IMG/VR virus record: IMGVR_UViG_3300012964_000010 | Span: 62,001-126,000 of that record | Direction: 5' to 3' (one strand) | Length of the DNA: 64,000 nt | Source: a virus | Shown here: piece by piece, positions 41,133-57,485 of the stretch | Numbering within the stretch: position 1 is the first letter of the stretch | How the letters are laid out: each line of letters opens with the position of its first letter | Translations under genes and position numbers: made by a program | The notes under the pieces: model-generated | The model's input: only the letters and a program-made list of their open reading frames with translations | What the model was told of the DNA's origin: nothing | Database searches by the model: none

Positions 41133-41200
41133 CAGAATACTTTTTCTTTTCAAAGATAATGGTTTTGAAATTTTTAAATTTGCTGGAAGTACTCTTTAAA
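41133..41200 (-). repeat. Bulged-stem element S2
   Basis: Outer strands AGAGTAC/GTATTCT with AAA/TTT beyond a bulged G; inner hairpin TTTCAAA/TTTGAAA. Shares the leader TTTAAAGA and trailer TCTGTTTTA with S1, S3-S8. No T-arm inside. Confidence 0.55.
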
Positions 41201-41207
41201 ACTAAAA

Positions 41208-41295
41208 CAGAATTCTTTTAACAAGTCCTGTTACAGACCCGATTGGAGTTGAACCAATTTTAACCATAAGGTTGTTGCTGGAAGAATTCTTTAAA
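41208..41295 (-). ncRNA. Bulged-stem element S3 with T-arm
   Basis: Outer strands AGAATTC/GAATTCT. Inside are T-arm ATTGG-TTCAACT-CCAAT, CGGGTCT G, spacer TAACA and GGACTTG, which can pair with CGGGTCT over seven bases. The order (3' acceptor before 5' acceptor) is permuted like S7, but no D-arm follows. Confidence 0.45.
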
Positions 41296-41297
41296 TT

Positions 41298-41375
41298 TGG
41301 TACCCAGGATGGGATTCGAACCCACACTGTAGAGATTTTAAGTCTCCTGTCTCCTACCTATTGCACTACCTGGGC
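41298..41375 (-). tRNA. tRNA-Leu (TAA)
   Basis: Acceptor GCCCAGG/CCTGGGT, stem GGAGA/TCTCT, loop CTTAAAA, CCA encoded. Short variable loop for a Leu tRNA; same family as 52302 and 52908. Confidence 0.75.
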
Positions 41376-41383
41376 GTAATTCT

Positions 41384-41677
41384 TTATTGTTGAATTAAAA
41401 CTTTTCTATAACAGCCGCATTCCGGAAAATAACGCATTTCTTCAAGATACATTACACCATTAATGAATACAGTATTTGTTGAATACATCGGCTGCGGAGC
41501 GGCATATACCGGCGCGGATGGAAGAAGTGCATATCCAATGGCTCCACCAATGACTAACGGTGCTACCCAATCATTATTATGATATCCGCCATAATGCCTG
41601 TGTTCCTCATATCGAAACCCGTGCGCAAATACTGAGAATGATACCGCTGATAAAATCACAAATAGTAGCTTCTTCAT
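41384..41677 (-). CDS. Exported Tyr/Gly/His-rich protein
   Basis: 97 residues. Signal peptide MKKLLFVILSAVSFSVFAHG, then a His/Tyr-rich RYEEHRHYGGYHNN and a Gly/Pro/Ala membrane-like stretch. Ends FPECGCYRKVLIQQ with two Cys. Resembles small bacterial envelope proteins; function unknown. Confidence 0.65.
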   Translation of the reverse strand: MKKLLFVILSAVSFSVFAHGFRYEEHRHYGGYHNNDWVAPLVIGGAIGYALLPSAPVYAAPQPMYSTNTVFINGVMYLEEMRYFPECGCYRKVLIQQ

Positions 41678-41740
41678 ATATTGTCTCCGTTTAATCTATT
41701 TAGCTATCTTGTTCTTATTGACTAATTTTTATTATACTGC

Positions 41741-41829
41741 AGGGTGGAGATGGATTCGAACCACCGATGGATACATACGTAGTTTCCTGCTTTGCAGACA
41801 GGTGCCTTCGACCGCTTGGCTATCCACCC
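41741..41829 (-). tRNA. Class II tRNA with Cys anticodon (GCA)
   Basis: Acceptor GGGTGGA/TCCACCC, U73 as in Cys tRNAs, no encoded CCA. Stem CCTGT/GCAGG, loop CTGCAAA, but with a 20-base variable arm unlike normal tRNA-Cys. A normal tRNA-Cys is at 52495. Confidence 0.7.
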
Positions 41830-41910
41830 ATAGACATCTAATATCGTAGAGGCCACCATCTTCAGGGAATCGGGCATACCACCAAGGACTTACTTTCGTA
41901 CCCAGGCTTC

Positions 41911-42288
41911 TTAGATTGTTCCTTCTGGTCCAAGTTCTGCTTGTAATTTCTTAATTAAGGCAAGCTTGGATTCTCTATCTTTTAATTCTTTCTTATGTTT
42001 TCGAACAAGCGCGGCGTCGGCCCTCTTTTTCTTCTCTTCGGCTTCTTTTCTCTTTTCTTCTTTCACCAAAGTCTTATAATCGGAGATTGTTTTTGCAATA
42101 AATTTCTTAGGTTCAGCTGGTTGTTCCATGATCTGGAATCCCATGCGATAGGATGCTTGTACCAAGTCATCGAATTCTTCGTCGGTTACTTCTTCCCAAT
42201 TAGTAATACTCTGTAAAATTGTTTCGTAATCATCGCCGTAATTATAATAGCAATTTTTAGTAATGATAATAGCAATCTTGTGTGCCAT
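41911..42288 (-). CDS. Hypothetical charged protein, 125 aa
   Basis: Begins MAHKIAIIITKNCYYNYGDDYE. C-terminal half is a long Lys/Glu helix (KEEKRKEAEEKKKRADAALVRKHKKELKDR). Not recognised. Confidence 0.65.
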   Translation of the reverse strand: MAHKIAIIITKNCYYNYGDDYETILQSITNWEEVTDEEFDDLVQASYRMGFQIMEQPAEPKKFIAKTISDYKTLVKEEKRKEAEEKKKRADAALVRKHKKELKDRESKLALIKKLQAELGPEGTI

Positions 42289-42306
42289 ATAATACCTCTA
42301 TTAAGT

Positions 42307-42372
42307 CAGAATGTGCTTTTTAGTTTCATTTACTGTGAAATTGTTTTAATTTGCTGAATACATTCTTTAGGA
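42307..42372 (-). repeat. Bulged-stem element S4
   Basis: Outer strands AGAATGT/ACATTCT; leader CCTAAAGA, inner hairpin TTTCA-CAGTAAA-TGAAA. Ends at the start of tRNA-Tyr. Confidence 0.5.
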
Positions 42373-42375
42373 ATC

Positions 42376-42461
42376 TGGTGGAGCAGATAGGATTCGAACC
42401 TATTCAGCCTAAGGCGCCTGATTTACAGTCAGGAGAGACTCTCCAACGTCCCCGCTACTCC
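42376..42461 (-). tRNA. tRNA-Tyr (GTA)
   Basis: Class II, acceptor GGAGTAG/CTGCTCC, stem CCTGA/TCAGG, loop CTGTAAA, CCA encoded. Confidence 0.88.
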
Positions 42462-42468
42462 AAATTTT

Positions 42469-42543
42469 CCATATTAAAACACACTGCTGTCCACTTCAGC
42501 CAGCGCGCCAGAGGGATTCGAACCCAAGTGTGTTTTAATATGG
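42469..42543 (-). ncRNA. 17-bp inverted repeat enclosing T-arm and D-arm (YrlA-like)
   Basis: Arms ccatattaaaacacact/agtgtgttttaatatgg pair perfectly. Inside, the minus strand has T-loop GGG-TTCGAAT-CCC, a short GC-rich linker and a perfect D-arm GCTG-AAGTGGA-CAGC. Acceptor halves overlap and cannot both pair, so this is an elbow without acceptor, like 18850-18960. Confidence 0.5.
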
Positions 42544-56020: not shown

Positions 56021-56190
56021 TGGTGGACCGCCTGGGATTCGAACCCAGATTACCTTGTACTTACGTACGGACGGAGTCGAACCGTCTCAATCGTGATGTG
56101 CACAGTCACGGGGCGCCGCAGCCCACAGCCCATTAATGGCAGGCCCCGCGGATTCTCACCACTCGTTCAAGTGTTTGGATCACTTGGACA
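56021..56190 (-). ncRNA. Composite tRNA-like RNA with two T-arms
   Basis: 3' part has T-arm CTGGG-TTCGAAT-CCCAG, GCGGTCC and CCA. Further 5' is a second T-arm around TTCGACT, a GTAC-GTAA-GTAC hairpin, and a long GGGGC...GCCCC structure. The 5' acceptor match is only four pairs (CCGC). Confidence 0.4.
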
Positions 56191-56261
56191 TACGATATAG
56201 AAGGCCTATAATTGGAGCCCGAGGCGGATATATTGAATAGTAATCCGGTATCAGGCATATT

Positions 56262-56338
56262 TGGCGTCCTTAGAGGGAATCGAACCCTACTTCTGTAACG
56301 TGAAAGGCTACCGTCCTAGCCAAGTAGACGATAAGGAC
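56262..56338 (-). tRNA. tRNA-Glu (TTC)
   Basis: Acceptor GTCCTTA/TAAGGAC, stem GTAGC/GTTAC, loop CTTTCAC, discriminator G, CCA encoded. Confidence 0.88.
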
Positions 56339-56343
56339 ATATT

Positions 56344-56418
56344 TGGAGTCGCATACGGGGATCGAACCCGTCTGATCAGCGTGAAAGGCTGAGGACCTCA
56401 CCAAAAGTCAAATGCGAC
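56344..56418 (-). tRNA. tRNA-Glu (TTC)
   Basis: Acceptor GTCGCAT/ATGCGAC, perfect TCAGC/GCTGA stem, loop CTTTCAC, CCA encoded. U73 is unusual for Glu. Confidence 0.85.
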
Positions 56419-56419
56419 A

Positions 56420-56659
56420 TTATTTAAATTTATATCTGACAACAACTGCCAGGCATACAATATTTATACTGTAATTGAAAAGCAACGGCATGTCATGCTT
56501 AGGTAAAACATAAGCAAACATCATTAGTTCACCTATTAACCACATGATTAAAAACATATTGGATATACCATTTGAATGTTTTTGTTTGAAGGATTCCCAT
56601 GCAAGCGGTATTCCGCAGAGTGCAAGCATAATACCACCCAACCACCCGATTAATTCCAT
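56420..56659 (-). CDS. SemiSWEET/PQ-loop-like membrane protein
   Basis: 79 residues, three membrane helices. GIPLAWESFKQKHSNGISNMF shows the PQ-loop-type turn and ...FNYSINIVCLAVVV the third helix. SemiSWEETs move sugars. Homodimer expected. Confidence 0.65.
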   Translation of the reverse strand: MELIGWLGGIMLALCGIPLAWESFKQKHSNGISNMFLIMWLIGELMMFAYVLPKHDMPLLFNYSINIVCLAVVVRYKFK

Positions 56660-56663
56660 AGAA

Positions 56664-57062
56664 TTACCAATCCTTAAATTCTGATATGAATCTAATACCC
56701 GCTGTCATTCCGTTTTTAGGTGGATGGTATCTAAAAGTTACCTCAGTAAGATTACCAATCTTACTAATGGGGATGTAAAATAGTTCTTCTACATCAGGTA
56801 TATACACAACAAACGCGTCGATATTTTCTTCTGTGTATGATCGTCTATTAGTAAAAGTATTATTCTCTAATTTAAGTTGAATGGTGCCAGTCTTTGTTAG
56901 GCTTCGAAACTTAATTTGGACACGTTTTGGGCCCAATCCTGTATCTAATACAAAATCATACGGGCAATCTTGTGGCATCTTGCCAACCCAATATCCTTTC
57001 TTGGCTGCGGCTAATACAAATGCTGCTTCGCCTATGTCACCTTTATAATTTGTTATGCTCAT
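56664..57062 (-). CDS. PD-(D/E)XK nuclease-like protein (possible I-Ssp6803I type)
   Basis: 132 residues. GDIGEAAFVLAAAKKGYWVG, CPYDFVLDT and RVQIKFRS give the E...D...(Q)xK core of small PDDEXK nucleases that include homing endonucleases from tRNA introns. Sits inside the tRNA array. Fold by motif only. Confidence 0.6.
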   Translation of the reverse strand: MSITNYKGDIGEAAFVLAAAKKGYWVGKMPQDCPYDFVLDTGLGPKRVQIKFRSLTKTGTIQLKLENNTFTNRRSYTEENIDAFVVYIPDVEELFYIPISKIGNLTEVTFRYHPPKNGMTAGIRFISEFKDW

Positions 57063-57115
57063 ATAGTATCTCCATACTATATTTAGTCCATTCGTTGGGC
57101 CGACGGATGGTATAT

Positions 57116-57190
57116 TGGTTGCCGCGGGGAATTTCGAAATCCCGACTTTTGCCTTATCAAGACACTACTCTGCCTCTGAGTTACGCGGCA
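57116..57190 (-). tRNA. tRNA-Ile (GAT)
   Basis: Acceptor TGCCGCG/CGCGGCA, loop TTGATAA on TGTC/GGCA, CCA encoded. T-loop has an extra T. Confidence 0.78.
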
Positions 57191-57196
57191 ATAAAA

Positions 57197-57273
57197 TGGT
57201 CTCGCACACACGACTCGAACGTGCATCTTCCACGCCCCAAACGTGGTGACTTAGCCAATTAGCCCAATGCGAG
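57197..57273 (-). tRNA. tRNA-Pro (TGG)
   Basis: Stem CCACG/CGTGG, loop TTTGGGG, CCA encoded. Second Pro(TGG) gene. Confidence 0.88.
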
Positions 57274-57337
57274 AAATAAATGTTTGATTTTGTAGAGGCA
57301 CAATCAGGTAGGCTTTTCATACTATTCAAACTAAAAT

Positions 57338-57411
57338 TGGTGCCCCATGACAGAATCGAACTGCCGTCTTCACGTTACAAAGGTGTTGTTCTACCATTTA
57401 ACTAATAGGGC
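57338..57411 (-). tRNA. tRNA-Thr (TGT)
   Basis: Acceptor GCCCTAT/ATGGGGC, loop TTTGTAA, CCA encoded. Anticodon stem has two mismatches. Confidence 0.75.
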
Positions 57412-57420
57412 GAAAATAAA

Positions 57421-57485
57421 CAGAGTACGCATTTGGTTTCATTAAAAGTGAAAATTTTTGTGATTGCAGTAGGTACTCTTTAAAA
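57421..57485 (-). repeat. Bulged-stem element S8
   Basis: Outer strands AGAGTAC/GTACTCT, inner hairpin TTTCA-CTTTTAA-TGAAA resembling a Lys(UUU) anticodon arm. Confidence 0.5.

Follow-up and report, generated by a model that had tools for sequence, protein, structure and literature searches.

The stretch of DNA analysed here (the window, 64,000 nucleotides (nt) long) corresponds to bases 62001-126000 of the virus record IMGVR_UViG_3300012964_000010, which totals 127,320 bases and whose 50 tRNA/tmRNA genes all lie on the minus strand. On this same strand, the window contains ten copies of one RNA element with a bulged outer stem, seven of them in the tRNA array and three beside a gene coding for a DUF2828 protein (Table 1). 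The evidence used throughout consists of sequence and structure prediction.

Architecture, pairing and placement of the elements

From 5' to 3', each element is composed of AAAGA, N4, five bases that mostly end in CA, then GCA, a variable-length interior, the complementary N4, TCT and G. The outer stem AGANNNN:NNNNTCT is about 7 base pairs (bp) long, up to 9; next on the 5' strand comes a five-base bulge plus GCA, so that this bulged part ends in a conserved (C)AGCA. An earlier note on this DNA, made from the letters alone, had listed at least eight copies. All eight are real (minus strand, within a few bases), and two copies that were overlooked, 17675-17706 and 19025-19131, bring the total to ten. 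Two features absent from that description of the family were found here, namely the conserved CAGCA and a copy at the DUF2828 ribosome-binding site. A strict scan of the window, which required AAAGA, GC[AT] 11-13 bases into the stem strand, at least 6 bp and TCTG, returned 10 minus-strand elements and 1 plus-strand element; 100 dinucleotide shuffles gave a mean of 0.53 over both strands combined (maximum 3).

Covariation was assessed on arms chosen independently of pairing: AAAGA-N9-GCA arms were collected, a complementary N4+TCTG was searched within 230 nt, and the N4 were permuted among arms. On the minus strand of the window 10 of the 12 arms found their complement, and these are identical to the ten elements; the permutations gave a mean of 2.02 paired arms and reached 10 in 0/2000 cases. 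Pooled virus and phage loci, including stretches L181-L194 that were chosen on a match to the 5' pattern irrespective of pairing, gave 30/110 paired arms versus 4.17 after permutation (0/2000 as high), and only 7/317 arms were paired when control motifs replaced GCA. Covariation beyond chance is thus present in the window and in the pooled loci. The compensatory changes reported earlier hold, since AGAATTC, AGAGTAC, AGACTAC and AGAATGC all keep pairing, as do AGAATGT, AGATTAGGT, AGAATC and AGAATTT.

The interiors are of several kinds. The two tRNA-like modules and the partial one described in the earlier note are correct, with an arrangement that it had not noticed: in 18857-18955 and 52757-52899 the T-arm precedes the D-arm, which is the reverse of the tRNA order, and neither of these two copies has an anticodon arm. 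In 52757-52899 a closed acceptor-like arm (7-bp plus 11-bp) joins the T-arm to the D-arm; in 18857-18955 this arm is very short or absent. The other eight of the ten copies have no complete tRNA-like domain: 41209-41290 has the T-arm only, 19025-19131 has a conserved interior that was aligned with five relatives, and the remaining copies have short interiors. Among 27 aligned permuted elements, in all of which the T-arm precedes the D-arm, double changes preserve 13/15 consensus pairs (the outer stem having been used in the choice of elements). The covariance model R1 was built from these 27 elements and both window elements belong to its training set, which applies to their scores in Table 1. 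In the whole record, the Rfam YrlA model (RF02553) matches only the 18857 and 52757 elements, at 25.5 and 32.8 bits respectively, and its alignment to 18857-18955 covers the full length of the model (1-114). No RF02553 match above the cut-off was obtained in 21 further loci, and no DNA match to element 18857 was found in named phages. Separately, R1 matches positions 55721-55821 (minus strand) at 40.6 bits, with ACAGCAA and a T-arm and without a clear outer stem; this is perhaps a degenerate eleventh copy.

For six of the seven array copies, a tRNA gene is only 7-10 nt away (random placement: mean 0.31, 0/2000 as high). Because the gaps between elements and tRNAs are similar to those between adjacent tRNAs in the array, we suggest that the two may be processed jointly. 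These positions are shared with related viruses. The stem and T-arm of 41209-41290 recur in a related 385-kb virus (L181 934-1021), in which the counterpart of 42308-42366 adjoins tRNA-Tyr, and the stem of 57422-57479 recurs in a further stretch (L182), likewise between tRNA-Asp and tRNA-Thr. The copy at 42308-42366 was also considered as the leader of a second regulated gene, the open reading frame (ORF) that follows it; this was rejected, as the L181 counterpart precedes tRNA-Cys by 64 nt and the ORF has no PHROG match.

Table 1. Position and main characteristics of the ten RNA elements and of the DUF2828 gene (coordinates of the window)
Feature	Position	Strand	Size	Description
DUF2828 + DUF7788 (vWA) gene	16235-17659	minus	474 aa	Predicted Ro60-like ring protein
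Mini element	17675-17706	minus	32 nt	Leader of the DUF2828 gene; AGAATTT:AAATTCT, ACAGCAA
Y-RNA-like element, permuted tRNA-like domain	18857-18955	minus		T-arm, very short link, D-arm; R1 84.7 bits
Second-type element	19025-19131	minus		9-bp stem; conserved AACCTTTC..GGAAAG.AAAAACT effector region
Small element	41134-41195	minus	62 nt	7 nt upstream of tRNA-Gln
Partial tRNA-like element	41209-41290	minus		T-arm without D-arm; 7 nt past tRNA-Leu
Small element	42308-42366	minus	59 nt	9 nt past tRNA-Tyr; 19 nt before ATG of ORF 41911-42288
Small element	48396-48448	minus	53 nt	9 nt upstream of tRNA-Met
Small element	50741-50795	minus	55 nt	Between tRNA-Gly and tRNA-Ser, at 84 and 78 nt
Y-RNA-like element, permuted tRNA-like domain	52757-52899	minus		8 nt past tRNA-Leu; R1 83.4 bits
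Small element	57422-57479	minus	58 nt	10 nt upstream of tRNA-Thr

The DUF2828 protein and the association of its gene with the stem

The 474-aa protein matches the Pfam families DUF7788 (2.9e-47), DUF2828 (4.9e-27) and VWA_2 (8e-4), as well as PHROG 850, annotated as RNA-binding protein (8.5e-152). An AlphaFold2 model computed with 31 homologues reached a predicted local distance difference test (pLDDT) value of 80.4, and the top ten VIA-align rows obtained with this model are all Ro60/TROVE structures (Z 14.1-18.5), among them 9kop (Z 18.5, 395 residues), 2i91 (Z 17.8, 404 residues), 9l5y, the phiLo Ro60 of a Thermus phage (Z 17.4), and 2nvo, the Rsr of D. radiodurans (Z 14.1). The best unrelated row corresponds to a vWA domain alone (Z 10.1 over 164 residues), while the similarity to Ro60 spans almost the whole protein, that is the HEAT-like ring plus the vWA domain. 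Judged on its model, the DUF2828 protein is a Ro60-fold protein outside Pfam TROVE. D269, S271 and S273 are invariant across the 31 homologues and correspond to DxSxS, the vWA metal-site motif. At the sequence level, phmmer gave no link between the protein and the solved Ro60 chains; a profile match to 9kop and 9l5y (2.7e-4) was discarded as a sequence link, since a designed protein outscores them, and the fold comparison was used instead.

DUF2828 occurs in 681 of 50,697 phage records. The association of stem and gene was evaluated on the best 80 of 127 virus loci, on the best 80 of 81 bacterial loci and on 13 named phages, hand-picked for diversity among the 681 records and therefore non-random. 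The position of the gene was set by motif in 159/174 loci, the other loci being excluded from the counts that depend on it. Near DUF2828, CAGCAA is preceded by a stem of 7+ bp in 96/237 cases in virus loci (5/78 on the opposite strand), in 22/32 in the named phages (1/13) and in 69/209 in bacteria (10/114); scrambled motifs gave about 2-20%. Far from the gene, the virus loci gave 33/199, as expected if some copies are dispersed. By chance, about one CAGCAA in ten has a stem, and the list of elements for the named phages includes chance stems. Clear elements were recognised in DLP6, S13, FelixO1 (four, amid tRNAs), List-36 (three in tandem), MsGreen (three), Los1 (two), KP13-26, LAh_9, Enterococcus A2 (three), phiM7 and GAP32, and the stem adjoins the DUF2828 gene away from tRNAs in Listeria, Campylobacter and mycobacterial phages.

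R1 was searched in 76 of the 80 bacterial loci (the 4 training loci being excluded) and in 46 virus, phage and window sources. In the 76 bacterial loci there were 67 matches at E<=0.1, without exception on the same strand as the gene. A match reaches E<=1e-5 in 20 of these 76 loci, and in each of them it lies upstream of the match to DUF2828, at a distance of a few hundred nt. Conversely, a search starting from the RNA used a pattern of CAGCAA, T-arm and D-arm in which the stem was left unspecified. It retrieved 29 virus stretches with 21 distinct 5' arms (manual reading), and a flanking stem was present at the expected place in 27/29 at 6+ bp and in 24/29 at 7+ bp, with widely varying sequences. 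A Ro60-type protein is encoded in 20 of these 29 records (DUF2828 in 17, TROVE in 1 more and a diverged protein detected by profile A1 in 2 more).

Some of these sites already bear other labels. In S13 (NC_028773.1 132703-132945) a permuted Y-RNA-like element overlaps features labelled as long odd tRNAs, and in KVP40 (NC_005083.2 180967-181213) a permuted element overlaps the annotated tRNA-Pseudo-4 and -5. A single weak R1 match in Pseudomonas phage Milchi was rejected as an element, as it corresponds to two ordinary tRNAs.

Proposed mechanism, leader copy and rival readings

Considering the Ro60 fold, the YrlA-like layout and the co-occurrence of stem and gene, we hold it likely that the elements are phage Y RNAs docking onto the phage's own Ro60-like DUF2828 protein, with array copies that would be co-processed and a leader copy that would serve as operator. 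The earlier note had already read them as Y-RNA-like elements for this protein, and these three independent lines, drawn from sequences and models, lend support to it. The predicted protein probably binds the outer stem: the bulged 7-9 bp helix would dock onto its Ro60-like ring, and the interior (permuted tRNA-like domain, T-arm alone, second conserved domain or small loop) would steer the ribonucleoprotein (RNP) to partners or clients. Array copies would be excised together with the tRNAs, and the small elements devoid of a tRNA-like domain might occupy the ring, gate it, or keep the protein in reserve. Like cellular Ro60, the RNP might take part in RNA quality control, decay or repair. The neighbours of the DUF2828 gene include an RNA ligase and an ADP-ribosylglycohydrolase; because of this nearby ligase and of the approximately 50 tRNA genes, we infer that the handling of damaged or misfolded tRNA would be the likeliest role.

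The mini element 17675-17706 ends with TCTG, directly followed by the AAGGAG Shine-Dalgarno sequence, and 15 nt separate its stem from the ATG. In the close relatives (L003-L021), an element is present in the leader in 19/19 cases, ending 11-20 nt before the start codon; it is 32-44 nt long in thirteen of them and full-length (103-124 nt) in six. A strict test (stem of 7+ bp, end at most 45 nt from the start, non-redundant loci, start codon of the window leader set manually) found leader elements in 16/49 virus, 4/11 phage and 16/60 bacterial loci, versus 0.60, 0.25 and 0.45 in shuffled leaders. The position of this stem against the Shine-Dalgarno sequence, together with the conservation of an element in all 19 close relatives, suggests self-repression by the DUF2828 protein. 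The leader element would act as an operator, the protein in excess of its Y RNAs binding its own mRNA and blocking the entry of ribosomes; as the mini stems are weak alone, ribosomes could enter unless the protein holds the stem. More broadly, stem plus CAGCA may serve phages and bacteria generally as the tag by which RNAs dock onto Ro60-like DUF2828 proteins, so that any RNA bearing it would join the Ro60 particle irrespective of its interior. In the window the tag is carried by ten RNAs with at least four kinds of interior, one of the ten being the leader of the protein's own mRNA; the protein would thereby be titrated against its Y RNAs and would switch itself off once these are saturated. 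We advance this wider proposal tentatively, its chances lying a little below even.

The leader element might instead be the last Y RNA of a Y-RNA/DUF2828 operon, excised from the transcript without any effect on translation, a possibility that we take seriously while doubting it. In six close relatives (L004, L005, L010 and L011-L013) the leader copy is full-length, not mini, ending 17-19 nt ahead of the start codon, and elements are located elsewhere than in the leader in FelixO1, MsGreen and many virus loci; moreover, a Y RNA adjoining the Ro60 gene is reportedly a known arrangement. The mini elements of 32-44 nt, however, are too short for an effector domain, lie at a similar distance from the start codon in phages that have diverged, and are found again in other lineages (DLP6, 42 nt; phiM7, 35 nt; L068, 38 nt).

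Several results weigh against reading the elements as Y RNAs of the DUF2828 protein. TROVE (PF05731) has no Pfam match at E<=0.01 in the DUF2828 protein of the window and none in the 13 named phages carrying DUF2828. The two RF02553 scores lie far below the gathering score of 69 bits, and of 14 control genomes 7 also give matches to this model below its cut-off (E<=0.001), perhaps through tandem tRNAs that mimic a T-arm followed by a D-arm; RF02553 was thus ruled out as sole evidence. Milchi has DUF2828 and no credible element, and around the tRNA-like domain of KVP40 no clear outer stem was seen. No Ro60-type protein (DUF2828, TROVE or profile A1) was detected in 9 of the 29 records retrieved from the RNA, which measure 5.8-98 kb and may be fragments. 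The mini stems are weak when taken alone (-1.7 to -8.2 kcal/mol), and the majority of leaders beyond the close group have no element in the strict test. Finally, in Listeria phage cka15 the region 26,236-26,727, which PMC12282133 names as one of the most heavily read, lies outside the elements of that phage.

Three further explanations concern the whole family. DUF2828 might be a Ro60-fold relative whose main RNA is another one, while some other protein encoded in the same operons binds the stems. The absence or displacement of the element in several phages speaks for it; we regard it as unlikely, given that the RNA is repeatedly accompanied by a Ro60-type protein, in phages and in bacteria of different classes. 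Slightly less likely still, the elements could be hairpins that serve to process or punctuate the tRNA array and have no relation to DUF2828: the 7-10 nt spacing of six of the seven array copies would fit, but the stem adjoins DUF2828 genes away from tRNAs (17675-19131 in the window, and in phages) as well as in bacterial chromosomes, some elements enclose tRNA-like domains, and in the RNA-first search the RNA co-occurs with a Ro60-type protein. A reading of the elements as tRNA genes that have decayed or undergone circular permutation, or as copies of a mobile repeat, which the two permuted copies and the dispersion might suggest, is scarcely credible and was rejected, because the permuted copies have no anticodon arm, the stems diverge among copies and yet pair, the orientation is single, and orthologous sites lie beside identical tRNAs in related viruses.

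Other features were noted in the window and in relatives. A GOLLD RNA lies inside the tRNA region at 43043-43463 (minus strand; 196 bits versus a cut-off of 150), and a permuted tmRNA gene is located at 36687-37150 (minus strand; ARAGORN tag ANNEMFALVA, with matches to both RF04321 and RF01850). At 42469-42543 and 42666-42797 (minus strand), two tRNA-like pieces are each enclosed in an inverted repeat that is nearly perfect and about 20 bp long (CCATATTAAAACA...TGTTTTAATATGG); they have no CAGCA bulge and may represent another kind of tRNA-like RNA. Three genes for solute-binding proteins (TctC twice, DctP) occupy 38821-39795, 43970-44878 and 45672-46637 (minus strand). In relatives L004-L020 (for instance L004 around 9189 and L017 around 8102), an RNA-like element of about 200 nt with a conserved GGACGATGTAAAA was observed, which in L010, L012 and L017 has a stem with the CAGCA bulge; the window does not contain GGACGATGTAAAA.

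Comparison with known systems

Ro60/Y-RNA particles are conserved from bacteria to humans, and their function is unclear in most hosts. If the proposal for the DUF2828 protein is correct, a short diagnostic motif would predict Y RNAs for a second, widespread Ro60-like family, and the particles could thereby be found in well-studied phages, including at sites labelled as odd or pseudo tRNAs. Natural variation would separate the docking part from the exchangeable part, and phages that carry their own translation parts would also carry an RNA-handling particle tuned to them.

In vertebrate Y RNAs, the Ro60 site is a seven-base-pair helix plus bulges (PMC4726728). The window elements resemble them by their lower stem of 7-9 bp plus a bulge, and differ by the absence of the single bulged C and of the three-nt bulge opposite, and by the tRNA-like domain of some copies; no likeness in sequence was noted between the two. 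There is also a resemblance in layout to YrlA, the bacterial Y RNA that partners Rsr (bacterial Ro60). As described in PMC8394870, YrlA has a permuted layout, lies in proximity to a Ro60-type gene, and carries a tRNA-like domain that reportedly binds PNPase. In all ten window copies both ends likewise form an outer stem with a 5' bulge, two copies share the order T-arm, acceptor-like arm, D-arm, and a Ro60-type gene is nearby, three of the ten copies lying within 1.5 kb of it and the other seven 23-40 kb away. Unlike in YrlA, the bulge is NNNCA-GCA instead of the consensus AUGCU, the candidate partner predicted here is DUF2828 and not TROVE, and there are ten copies, one of which stands at the ribosome-binding site of a protein gene.

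Both Ro60-type proteins and Y RNAs have precedents in phages. Phage Ro-like proteins have been described (PMC7824862), and the DUF2828 homologue of MsGreen is already annotated as 'Ro-like RNA binding protein'; no Y RNA annotation was present in the regions examined of the 13 named phages. PMC12282133 cites Y RNAs in mycobacteriophages, proposes Y RNAs upstream of the Ro-like gene CKA15_055 of cka15, and reports detection of the CKA15_055 protein in purified particles. We located three elements that are nearer to this gene than the region named there (OR088597.1, approximately 25,287-25,553). The abundant cka15 RNA was not retained as proof of their expression, as the region named for it does not span them; this RNA of about 490 nt (OR088597.1 26,236-26,727) is distinct from the elements described here. 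A title-level literature search, which covered few subscription journals, found no work on Ro60 self-regulation.

Within the literature searched, four aspects appear to be new. The first is the stem-CAGCA tag that the elements of the DUF2828 type have in common, and the second is that a tRNA array holds many copies of it, around different interiors. The other two are its occurrence next to DUF2828 genes on bacterial chromosomes and the copy that stands where ribosomes bind the DUF2828 message. With the phage Ro-like proteins (phiLo 9l5y, the mycobacteriophage Ro-like RNA binding protein and jumbo-phage TROVE), the window shares a predicted Ro60 fold, one already known in phages; what it adds to them is a multi-copy RNA family and a leader copy.

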